From Picosynechococcus sp. PCC 7003 (GTDB lineage: Bacteria; Cyanobacteriota; Cyanobacteriia; Cyanobacteriales; MRBY01), in the NCBI RefSeq assembly GCF_001693255.1, contig NZ_CP016474.1:886661-950660 (forward strand): a stretch of DNA of 64,000 bases. The letters are read 5' to 3'. Within the stretch, counting starts at the first letter, position 1, and every line of letters starts with the position of its first letter. Below, piece after piece: positions 617 through 4,340 of this stretch. Position numbers and translations under genes: made by a program. Under the pieces are notes generated by a model that searched no databases, was not told where the DNA came from, and worked only from the letters and a program-made list of their open reading frames with translations.

Positions 617-1014
617 TTTTTTATAGTAAGTATTGACTTTAGAATATAAAAAGAATTAACTTTATCAAAACTATAGGCTAGACTGGGCAAGGTTTCAGGA
701 AGGTTGCTTTTTTTAAAGTAAGATTTATTTTTCTTAAGTTTTGGCCACAATCCCCCCTAAGGGTCTACGGATATAATGTATTCGTTACTTGAAAATATTC
801 AATAAAACCCGAATCAATTTGATCTTAAAAAAAAGGCGATCGCCGCTCCTGATTTAGTTCATAAAAATCAAGATGGCTATGAATTTTTGGAAATTGCTCA
901 TTACTGCTGATTTTCAATTAGCAAGTTGATTTTTGAAGCGATCACCCTCCTTATCTCTCCACATAATTGAACGGCGATCGCCTTGAACATGAACGATATT
1001 AAGAATAATTGAAA
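617..1014. other. Intergenic stretch upstream of cpcG and downstream of the kinase cassette
   Basis: No complete gene is seen in these 398 bases. Two HIP1-type palindromes (GGCGATCGCC) lie near 836-845 and 973-982. An open stretch at about 846-908 (plus) would encode the end of a protein (…APDLVHKNQDGYEFLEIAHYC-stop) without a start codon; it may be the tail of a deleted gene. The cpcG promoter should lie just above 616. Confidence 0.5.
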
Positions 1015-2094
1015 TTACTTATTAATGACAATTACAGGATGTGCTCTGGGGTAGGGGCTTCCTGGAAAAGCGGAAAAAGAGACCTTATCCCCCAATTGAG
1101 GAGACCTCCCATAAACACTATCAAAATGAAAAAAAGTTTTTTGACCATTGTCATCTCGAATAAATCCATAAGTAGGCTTAGGATGTTCAATAAATTCACC
1201 AATTTTTCGAGAAATGACAGGATAACAAAAAGTTTCGCATACTTTCACTAATTCATTAGCTGTTGGTCTATCTTTTGGATTTTTCTGTAAACAAGAAAGA
1301 ATTACATTGAATAACTCATCCCCTAAAAATTTAAACTGAATTTTATTTTCGAGATAAGTAGGCTTGCTTGGAAGTTCAGCATCTAAGATCTTTTTTACTG
1401 CCTTTAAGCCGAAACCGAACGGTTTTTCTCCGCTGACTATTTCATAAACCATTGCTCCAAGAGACCAAATGTCAGATTCTTTACCTGCAGCATGAGAATC
1501 TTCAATCATTTCCGGAGACATATATGGGAGCGCACCAATAGCTGTTTTAGAGGTGCTTAGTGAACTTTCTCCTTCTGCTGTGGCTTCAGCCATTTCTTCC
1601 TCAGCCATTTTTGCAATACCAAAATCAGTAATCTTAATTTCTGTCAAGTTAAAATCATCGGTCGACATCACATTACTTGGCTTTAAGTCCCTGTGGACTA
1701 CGCCAGCTTCATGTGCAACAGCAATGCCCTTTGCTAAATAGTGTAAAATCTTGGCTGTTAAATAAGGATCAACAAAATTAGTCCTTTGTAATAAACCATC
1801 TTTCAAATTCTTTCCTTGAATAAATTCTTCAATTAAGTATTGATGCTTGTCAGTTTCAAAATAATCCAATGTTTTAGCTACATTTGGATGATTAACCTTT
1901 GCACTCATTCTTGCACTTCTCGCAAATCTTTTCGTCGCAGATGAGTTAAAAGGAACTTTTAGTGCAACTTCACGTTTTATTACTCGATCAAAAGCAAGAT
2001 ACACTTCTTGCATACCACCTTGGTCTACATAGCTTACTATTTCATATCTATTAGCTATGAAGTCACCTTTTTGATGTAGATTATCTGATGTCAT
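1015..2094 (-). CDS. Hanks-type Ser/Thr protein kinase with C-terminal cold-shock-like domain
   Basis: The 359-residue protein has a full kinase domain: glycine loop near 25-32 (DQGGMQEV), lysine K46, catalytic loop HRDLKPSN 134-141, DFG 157-159, and an SPE in place of APE at 193-195. There is no transmembrane segment, so it is probably cytoplasmic. Residues about 298-356 are not kinase: the string YGFIRDDNGQKTFFHFDSV followed by LGDKVSF has the order of a cold-shock (OB-fold) domain, compare GFI…G.D.F.HFS…..G..V.F. This would give the kinase a nucleic-acid-binding module. It overlaps the upstream kinase by 4 bases (ATGA) and is the last gene of a PP2C-kinase-kinase cassette. Kinase identity is certain; the cold-shock call rests on motif order only. 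Its target is unknown. Confidence 0.88.
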   Translation of the reverse strand: MTSDNLHQKGDFIANRYEIVSYVDQGGMQEVYLAFDRVIKREVALKVPFNSSATKRFARSARMSAKVNHPNVAKTLDYFETDKHQYLIEEFIQGKNLKDGLLQRTNFVDPYLTAKILHYLAKGIAVAHEAGVVHRDLKPSNVMSTDDFNLTEIKITDFGIAKMAEEEMAEATAEGESSLSTSKTAIGALPYMSPEMIEDSHAAGKESDIWSLGAMVYEIVSGEKPFGFGLKAVKKILDAELPSKPTYLENKIQFKFLGDELFNVILSCLQKNPKDRPTANELVKVCETFCYPVISRKIGEFIEHPKPTYGFIRDDNGQKTFFHFDSVYGRSPQLGDKVSFSAFPGSPYPRAHPVIVINK

Positions 2095-3164
2095 AAGACC
2101 ACCTCAGGATTTGAAATATCAAAGGTTATAAAAGTTCTACTATGATCACCTTCAAAGGTAATAACACAATTATTAGGTAGCAATTGATTCACCCTAATAC
2201 TGTTACGATTTACAGTAATATTCCCAGCATAATGAGCGACAACAAAATCCAAACCATTATACTGAATAGTTAGAGACCCTACATTGTCAATATTGAGATT
2301 CACAGAAGATTTGTCTTTTGAAATAACTTCGGTACGACCATTTGAGGTGAGAAGAGCACGATGTTTCCCAAATAATAAATGCTTTTTAAGAACATCTTTT
2401 ATCGTTTGAGCAGAGGGTCTATCTTGTGGATTAAATGCTAATGTTTGGTCAAGTATATTAGTAATGTCATTCGATAACTCGAAGGTCACTTCTTTGAAAC
2501 TAGGCTTGGGAGAAGTACTAGGCGGAATTTTTGAAAATGATTCATCAAGTTCTAATCCTGCAATATACCTCGCAGTTACCCCAAAGGCATAAATATCTAT
2601 CGCTTTGGTGAAGTGAACGAAGCCAGAGGAATATAGTTCAGGTGCAGCAAATAAGGTTGTCCCCTTAAATCCCATAGTTGAGTTGTTTTGGTTCTCAGTT
2701 CTGGTGAGTCCGAAATCAAATATCTTAATTAAATTGGCTGCATCAAACTTGATATTGTTAGGCTTAATATCCCTGTGAATTAAGTCTTTCTCATGTATAT
2801 CAGATATGCCCGATATAATTTGATATAAGATTTTTATGTATTCATTTTTTGATAGCTCTTGCGTCAAAACTCTTGATACTAAATCCTCACCCTCTATATA
2901 TTCTTGTACTATTCCGGGTCGTCTATTTTCTTCGTCTAAGATAACATCAAAAATTTGGACTATGTGTTTAGATCGTATATCCTGATGGAGTTTACACATG
3001 GCTTGGATTTCGTCTGTGAGCCTAGATGTATCATTATCATCTTGAATAAACTTAATAGCGACTTTCCGATCAAGATTAAGATCTTGACAGACAATAACTT
3101 CACCCATTCCACCTTTTAAAACTTGATCTAGCTGTCTATAACGACAGGGAAGAGAATTAGTCAT
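2091..3164 (-). CDS. Hanks-type Ser/Thr protein kinase with beta-rich C-terminal domain
   Basis: The 357-residue kinase has a glycine-rich loop KGGMGEV (17-23), K38, HRDIKPNN 130-137, DFG 150-152 and APE 174-176, so all catalytic residues are present. No membrane helix is visible. The last 90 residues are beta-rich, with a repeating hydrophobic pattern (SLTIQYNGLDFVVAHY, GNITVNRNSIRVNQLLPNN) that loosely resembles the second half of an FHA domain, but the usual SRxH phosphothreonine motif is not seen. The gene overlaps the phosphatase upstream by 8 bases and the second kinase downstream by 4, so the three are very probably co-translated. Base composition is clearly more AT-rich than the putA region next door. 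Confidence 0.88.
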   Translation of the reverse strand: MTNSLPCRYRQLDQVLKGGMGEVIVCQDLNLDRKVAIKFIQDDNDTSRLTDEIQAMCKLHQDIRSKHIVQIFDVILDEENRRPGIVQEYIEGEDLVSRVLTQELSKNEYIKILYQIISGISDIHEKDLIHRDIKPNNIKFDAANLIKIFDFGLTRTENQNNSTMGFKGTTLFAAPELYSSGFVHFTKAIDIYAFGVTARYIAGLELDESFSKIPPSTSPKPSFKEVTFELSNDITNILDQTLAFNPQDRPSAQTIKDVLKKHLLFGKHRALLTSNGRTEVISKDKSSVNLNIDNVGSLTIQYNGLDFVVAHYAGNITVNRNSIRVNQLLPNNCVITFEGDHSRTFITFDISNPEVVL

Positions 3165-4218
3165 TTATTGCTACCTCCTCTGTAAATTCAATTTTTAACT
3201 GTGGCTTGTCTTGTTTCTTCTGGTTTTCCAAAGATGATTTTTGTTTTCTTTGCTTGTTTGGCTTTCTTGTATTTTTTTCTTTATTTATATCTGTACTTTG
3301 AACCTCATTTTGATGAGAAGGAAGAGAGTCTGAAACTTTAATAGTAAAAAAATCGGTTTTCCCGGGAAGGCTCCACACCTCAAGGCGACTATCTTCCTTT
3401 TTTGAATTTAGCTGATTTGAAAGTGAATTAATAGATATTGCAGAAATTGTCGCATTATCTTTCCCACCAAGCCAAACAGAAATACGTGTTAATCTGTCAA
3501 CAATTTCAGTGATACTTTTAGCATTTTGAATAATCTCTTGAAATACCTTCTGAGGAATACTATGTGCTCCATCTGATGTTAAAAGAATGAACTTAAGATT
3601 TTCCGTCCGAACAATACTTGTTGTAGGCTCTATTCCGTCTCCCATGCCGACAAATTGCAACAGTTGTCTAAACTCAGGAGGGGGAGCTTTTAATCTTAAT
3701 TCAGCTAACTGCTCTTCGAGAGTATCATCTGTGGTTAATTGTTCAATCGGTTTTTCATCATAAACAGCGTATATTCTGCTATCTCCTACATTAACGATTG
3801 CCCATTCATGATTCTGACAAGCAATACTTGATAATGTCGAACCTCCTTTTCCCTGAAAATGTTTATATACAGTTTTATTTGCGATATCTACTGCGGCACT
3901 TAGTTTTTGACTTAAAGACTTTTCGTTACTATGAATCAGGGTTGCAGTAAAACTACTTATAGCTAAGTTGGCACAATCTCCCCCTTCCTGCATCCCACCC
4001 ATTCCGTCACAAAGTACGAGGGCAAACATTGGAGGTTTCCGATTATCTTCAAATCGAACTTGGAAAAAAAGAGTTCTGTCTTGATTCTCCTGTCGATTTC
4101 CTAAAACACTTCCGAGAACAACATGACCTCGGTCAACGGTGGTTAAACCACATTTGTTCCCAGAAGATAACCATCTTGATATTGCATCTTGTACTTGAGA
4201 GTGGAGTGCATGACTCAT
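3157..4218 (-). CDS. PP2C-family Ser/Thr protein phosphatase
   Basis: The 353-residue protein is a metal-dependent PP2C phosphatase. Visible motifs are ENQDR (44-48), the metal-binding DGMGG (71-75), VNVGDSRIY, LLTSDGAH and GGKDNATISAI near the end of the catalytic domain at about residue 265. The last 80 residues are a charged, lysine-rich tail (KPNKQRKQKSSLENQKK) that may be disordered. It is the first gene of a three-gene cassette and would be expected to reverse phosphorylation made by the two kinases behind it; that pairing is inference. Its own promoter should lie in 4219-4340, an AT-rich gap with no other gene. Confidence 0.9.
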   Translation of the reverse strand: MSHALHSQVQDAISRWLSSGNKCGLTTVDRGHVVLGSVLGNRQENQDRTLFFQVRFEDNRKPPMFALVLCDGMGGMQEGGDCANLAISSFTATLIHSNEKSLSQKLSAAVDIANKTVYKHFQGKGGSTLSSIACQNHEWAIVNVGDSRIYAVYDEKPIEQLTTDDTLEEQLAELRLKAPPPEFRQLLQFVGMGDGIEPTTSIVRTENLKFILLTSDGAHSIPQKVFQEIIQNAKSITEIVDRLTRISVWLGGKDNATISAISINSLSNQLNSKKEDSRLEVWSLPGKTDFFTIKVSDSLPSHQNEVQSTDINKEKNTRKPNKQRKQKSSLENQKKQDKPQLKIEFTEEVAIND

Positions 4219-4340
4219 ATGAATTTTAGAGTTTTAGGGCTTTTGCTTTCTATATTTTATTTGATATTAGTCCTCTGTTGCATCTATCTAGCTGATCGCC
4301 CTCCCACTTATTAGTAAAAGGACGATATGACTTTTATGAA

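Follow-up and report, generated by a model that had tools for sequence, protein, structure and literature searches.

A probable kinase-kinase-phosphatase operon at a cargo hotspot behind putA in the chromosome of Picosynechococcus sp. PCC 7003

INTRODUCTION

What is a Ser/Thr kinase that ends in a cold-shock-like domain doing in a cyanobacterial chromosome, and could such a tail sense nucleic acid? The question was raised by a stretch of 64,000 nucleotides from Picosynechococcus sp. PCC 7003 (contig NZ_CP016474.1, forward-strand positions 886,661 to 950,660), hereafter the window. A first-pass annotation, made from the letters alone, found the fusion there and placed it in no standard family. 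On this last point it was wrong: a kinase with such a tail is PfkA of the kinase-kinase-phosphatase (KKP) module, which was described in 2024 and numbers >1200 clusters, mostly in prophages (about 90%), with Cyanobacteria named among the carriers (PMC11341870).

The module PfkA-PfkB-PfpC comes from Pf6 of Pseudomonas aeruginosa MPAO1 and is both a tripartite type VII toxin-antitoxin and an anti-phage system (Guo et al. 2024, PMC11341870). Its defining pair of tails is a cold-shock domain (CSD) on PfkA, bearing the motif GFI/A, and an FHA domain on PfkB. In the published KKPs either kinase is non-toxic singly, the two are jointly toxic, PfpC neutralises them, and both tails are required.

The kinase-CSD fusion had been named, studied genetically and given a model before, which corrects the claim to novelty. 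The present locus contributes a probable KKP that sits at a putA cargo hotspot of a cyanobacterial chromosome, and a residue-level case that some of the usual nucleic-acid contact surface is gone from the CSD of this family.

RESULTS

Gene order and catalytic domains

Three genes on the minus strand are transcribed leftwards in the order PP2C phosphatase, FHA-tail kinase, CSD-tail kinase, with overlaps of 8 and 4 bp. The first, pfpC-like gene (3157..4218; 353 aa, 1062 bp) encodes the presumed antitoxin, and its PP2C domain lies at about 3538-4101 on the same strand (Pfam PP2C_2, 7.5e-7). The pfkB-like gene follows (2091..3164, minus strand; 357 aa, 1074 bp; Pfam Pkinase, 9e-39), then the pfkA-like gene (1015..2094, minus strand; 359 aa, 1080 bp). 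The published KKP screen used a gene length range of 900-1300 bp (PMC11341870); all three genes lie inside it, on one strand and in the order PP2C, kinase, kinase.

The first-pass annotation had called the reading frame at 1015-2094 a Ser/Thr kinase, and this is borne out by a complete kinase domain at residues 18-284 (Pfam Pkinase, 2.3e-47). Its motifs GGM (G26-M28), HRD (H134-D136) and DFG (D157-G159) have counterparts in the PfkB-like kinase at G18-M20, H130-D132 and D150-G152. The pfpC-like protein contains the PP2C motifs ENQDR, CDGMGG, GDSR, TSDG and GGKDN, among which ENQDR, DGMGG, GDSR, SDG and DN align with relatives; the NCBIfam model for Stp1/IreP-type PP2C matches it at 1.7e-31, under the cut-off of that model. 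Since all catalytic motifs of the kinases and the phosphatase are present, nothing points to decay of the operon. The PADLOC models for PD-T4-6 match both kinases, through the kinase domain.

The two tails

The C-terminal domain of the PfkA-like kinase covers about residues 296-358 (1021..1209, minus strand). Residues 309-342 contain, in frame, the segments YGFIRDD, TFFHFDSV and LGDKVSF, and the GFI motif itself (residues 310-312; 1159..1167, minus strand) is kept in 12 of 13 aligned PfkA sequences. The Pfam CSD model gives E=6.3e-4 against the whole protein and E=4.2e-5 against the tail alone, both scores being a few bits under Pfam's own cut-off. With phmmer the tail matches CspB and Unr in the PDB at 1e-4 to 1e-3; a profile of the tail and 12 relatives improves this to 1.1e-6 for Unr and 1.5e-6 for CspB, and the remaining matches are nearly all cold-shock proteins. 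The NCBIfam model for Se72, the retron cold-shock effector, matches at 3.5e-4, far under its cut-off.

The first-pass annotation had read the tail as a cold-shock OB-fold and offered a predicted structure as the check, a fold other than an OB-fold counting against it. AlphaFold2 returns a five-strand OB barrel (pLDDT 88.6). Searching the PDB with this model, Foldseek finds cold-shock domains (best E 1.6e-5) and VIA-align finds CspA/CspB (Z 10.2, rmsd 1.8 over 63 residues), in agreement with the Pfam and profile results. The one point in favour of a chance resemblance, with no cold-shock fold in the tail, is the Pfam score slightly under the curated cut-off; against it, cold-shock domains come first in profile, fold prediction and structural search alike, and we give that reading virtually no weight. 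The resemblance exceeds chance by four routes, and, taking the predicted fold with the profiles, we regard the Ser/Thr kinase-CSD fusion as genuine.

The tail of the PfkB-like kinase (about residues 267-354; 2103..2366, minus strand) is assigned to FHA by predicted fold only, as a sequence-profile search of the tail gave no FHA match. Its AlphaFold2 model has pLDDT 91; VIA-align matches it to the FHA structure 3po8 (Z 9.7, rmsd 2.3 over 81 residues), with nearly all listed matches being FHA; taken by itself, the Foldseek result is weak, its best FHA match having E 0.05. By eye, no clear GR...SxxH...NG signature is seen in 2103-2366. Judging from sequence, phosphothreonine binding by this tail may be lost or altered in this family.

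Relatives of the triad

Relatives of the PfkA-like protein match over the full length, tail included, at 41-57% identity. Plasmid carriers of the full-length kinase-CSD are found in Rhizobium, Agrobacterium, Xanthobacter and Pantoea; others are a P2-like element and P2 prophages of E. coli and Klebsiella phage Kp4865-2. Scanning viral contigs with the single PfkA-like protein gave 0 matches, and the alignment profile gave 14 contigs carrying a kinase-CSD up to 57% identical. A scan of genome contigs with the PfkA-like protein found two kinases of 34-35% identity in the kinase domain, with no match to the tail.

The order upstream is the same, with relatives of PP2C and PfkB, on the phage, on each of the 14 viral contigs, in the elements of E. 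coli and at the remaining plasmid loci that were examined. The exception is a Paraburkholderia locus (L019), which shows the kinase in part only, and in one triad (L028) the PP2C frame is partial. Within these triads identity is 32-47% for the proteins at the PfkB position and 26-41% for the PP2C proteins. In P2 prophages of E. coli the triad is flanked by the replication and portal genes; next to triads elsewhere stand, among others, genes of Shedu, ABC-three-component and toxin-antitoxin systems.

Several individual copies deserve record. In a plasmid-form P2-like element of E. coli (NZ_CP083887.1; L014:613-1778) PfpC is annotated in two pieces; unless this is a sequencing error, it would be a notable copy with a broken antitoxin beside intact kinases. 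On an E. coli chromosome (L036:8014-9180) PfpC is intact at 388 aa. The KKP of a Xanthobacter plasmid has an IS5-type transposase gene between the phosphatase and FHA-kinase genes (L017:7523-8641). On plasmids of Agrobacterium vitis and Rhizobium sp. B21/90 (L016:11352-14905 and L020:11349-14902) one and the same ABC-three-component set, which includes a DUF3732 protein, comes after the KKP, possibly as a travelling defence block.

Acquisition at the putA site

The whole operon lies within a strain-specific, low-GC segment at 785..4331. Its GC content is 35.8%, versus 47.3% for the window, and GC3 is 0.24-0.28 in the three triad genes versus 0.57 in putA. Homology to the closest relative (G002) breaks at 784 and 4332 by blastn, the right breakpoint falling nine bases past the putA stop (putA 3' end at window 4341). 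The flanks of the segment are common to that relative, but lie there at different chromosomal places, so the locus marks a rearrangement too. Core genes stand on either side, and no phage, integrase or transposase genes were found next to the operon. The HIP1 repeats, 2 in the 3.5-kb segment and 69 in the window, are too near expectation to be used as an argument for foreign origin.

The PfkA-like tail is absent from five further genomes in the genus, and it is likewise missing from the remainder of a sample of 386 cyanobacterial genomes. Weak CSD matches in three genomes (G001, G035 and G082) were rejected as KKPs; their frames, 73-193 aa long, could not nearly accommodate a kinase-CSD.

The site behind putA is a cargo hotspot across the genus, and in relatives it holds different toxin- or defence-like cargo in each (L061:3762-8833, L063:3679-10240, L066:6421-8438, L065:11759-13739): an HNH nuclease with a large P-loop protein that has an HSDR-like N-terminus in one, an FtsK/HerA-like protein with a MafB19-type deaminase-Imm1 pair in another, and BrnT with a UvrD-type helicase in another. 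In three of these loci (L061, L063 and L066) the cargo blocks are separated or followed by extra copies of the putA 3' end, 55-946 bp long, as though a cassette brought a piece of putA along when it arrived. Fusion of a putA 3' fragment to the end of the reading frame behind the BrnT toxin gene (L066:6693-7047) gives that frame the C-terminal peptide of putA, QRQGFAPIEGVD, as its last residues. The PCC 7003 genome also has a MazE/MazF-like pair, flanked by ilvD and mutL, some 9.5 kb to the left of where the window begins (L037:9653-10383).

Low GC, strain specificity and the cargo-hotspot position are signs of horizontal acquisition of the operon. They also bear on whether the three genes are simply a housekeeping or stress-signalling kinase-phosphatase set, for instance for the cold response, with no link to phages. 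Cyanobacteria are rich in Ser/Thr kinases, and the host genome has 13 matches; however, the other genomes in the genus lack the triad, its composition is foreign, it occupies a hotspot, and its relatives sit on phages and plasmids. We consider the housekeeping reading highly improbable.

Does the tail sense nucleic acid?

The first-pass annotation had suggested that the kinase tail might bind single-stranded nucleic acid. In its full form the idea is that the kinase is switched on when single-stranded RNA or DNA from a phage, or RNA altered by cold, binds to the CSD of PfkA. The fold is that of a true CSD by AlphaFold2, Foldseek and VIA-align, and mutation of GFI abolishes toxicity and defence in two published KKPs. 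Yet GFI is required for kinase toxicity even under plain overexpression of both kinases without phage, so the motif serves basic kinase activity. The known triggers, moreover, act on the phosphatase: Gp59 of T4 binds PfpC and inhibits it, and RepG4 of Pf4 makes PfpC be degraded.

The usual ligand-contact set of CspB is W8, F15/Y15, F17, F27, H29, F30 and F38. Nearly all relatives retain the equivalents of F17, F27 and H29, which in the PfkA-like tail are F311, F321 and H323; Y15 is mostly kept. Against this, W8 of the KWFN motif is lost, its position being E, A, R, T, S or D in the family; F30, the second aromatic of RNP2, is variable; and the F38 loop is shortened. Y328 and R350, which are invariant in the family, do not belong to the usual nucleic-acid contacts. 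The tail thus lacks the full CspB set, which lowers the odds of binding without excluding it, and on residue grounds the family CSD may bind single strands weakly. In the published KKP studies we found no demonstration of nucleic-acid binding by the PfkA tail.

On balance we think it unlikely that the tail is the nucleic-acid switch of the kinase. A docking or allosteric role of the CSD between the two kinases would fit the published genetics better than sensing does. A related proposal, that the CSD is a second, direct sensor of single-stranded phage DNA or RNA gating the kinase pair, we hold to be distinctly unlikely; were it true, KKP would read both the loss of its phosphatase and the presence of foreign nucleic acid as signals of infection.

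DISCUSSION

Gene order, domain folds, catalytic motifs, family membership and signs of acquisition at this locus all come together in one reading. With high confidence we take the operon at 1015-4218 to be a cyanobacterial KKP: a tripartite toxin-antitoxin that works by phosphorylation, was acquired horizontally and most likely aborts infection by phages; the assignment compares it by description with MPAO1 Pf6 and four other tested KKPs, and by alignment with other KKP-type triads. The locus may already be among the clusters tabulated in the supplement of PMC11341870.

By analogy with the published KKPs, the cyanobacterial operon would be toxic, under phosphatase control, triggered by phage and defensive. 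In the uninfected cell the PP2C phosphatase (PfpC) would hold the kinase pair dephosphorylated and silent. A phage protein that inhibits or depletes PfpC would let PfkA and PfkB autophosphorylate together; the active pair would then phosphorylate many host proteins, growth and division would stop, and the phage could not multiply. The operon would in this way be an abortive-infection switch with the phosphatase as sensor and the kinase pair as toxin. The CSD and FHA tails would be needed for joint kinase activity, most likely holding the complex together or guiding it to substrates; that they are the primary phage detector is less likely than either of these roles.

We know of no tested cyanobacterial KKP; the regulation of the present copy could have changed, or its function could lie outside phage defence. 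A KKP outside any recognisable prophage is a chance to test phage defence apart from prophage control.

Comparison with known systems

Single-kinase defence systems were considered and set aside. Stk2 of Staphylococcus and PD-T4-6 have in common with the present kinases that a Ser/Thr kinase is proposed to act against phages, but they are single genes without a dedicated PP2C, CSD or FHA partner. The TerY-P triad consists of vWA, PP2C and kinase, and in it too PP2C adjoins a kinase in a conflict context. A kinase-PP2C-vWA set resembling TerY-P also appears in PMC7159879. The PP2C and kinase adjacency is common to TerY-P and our locus, whereas the latter has no vWA gene, two kinases and a CSD tail; TerY-P and VMAP-type conflict systems were set aside, their partner genes being absent at the locus. 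The free-standing cold-shock proteins CspA/CspB and the retron Se72-type effector have the same OB-fold; here it is the C-terminal domain of a kinase, and the KWFN motif is lost.

The published KKP and the present operon are the same in gene order (PP2C, kinase, kinase), gene lengths, CSD and FHA tails, the GFI motif and the kinase motifs GGM, HRD and DFG. They differ in that the operon described here is chromosomal behind putA, with no recognisable prophage, in a cyanobacterial host, and in that its CSD falls slightly and its FHA far below sequence cut-offs.
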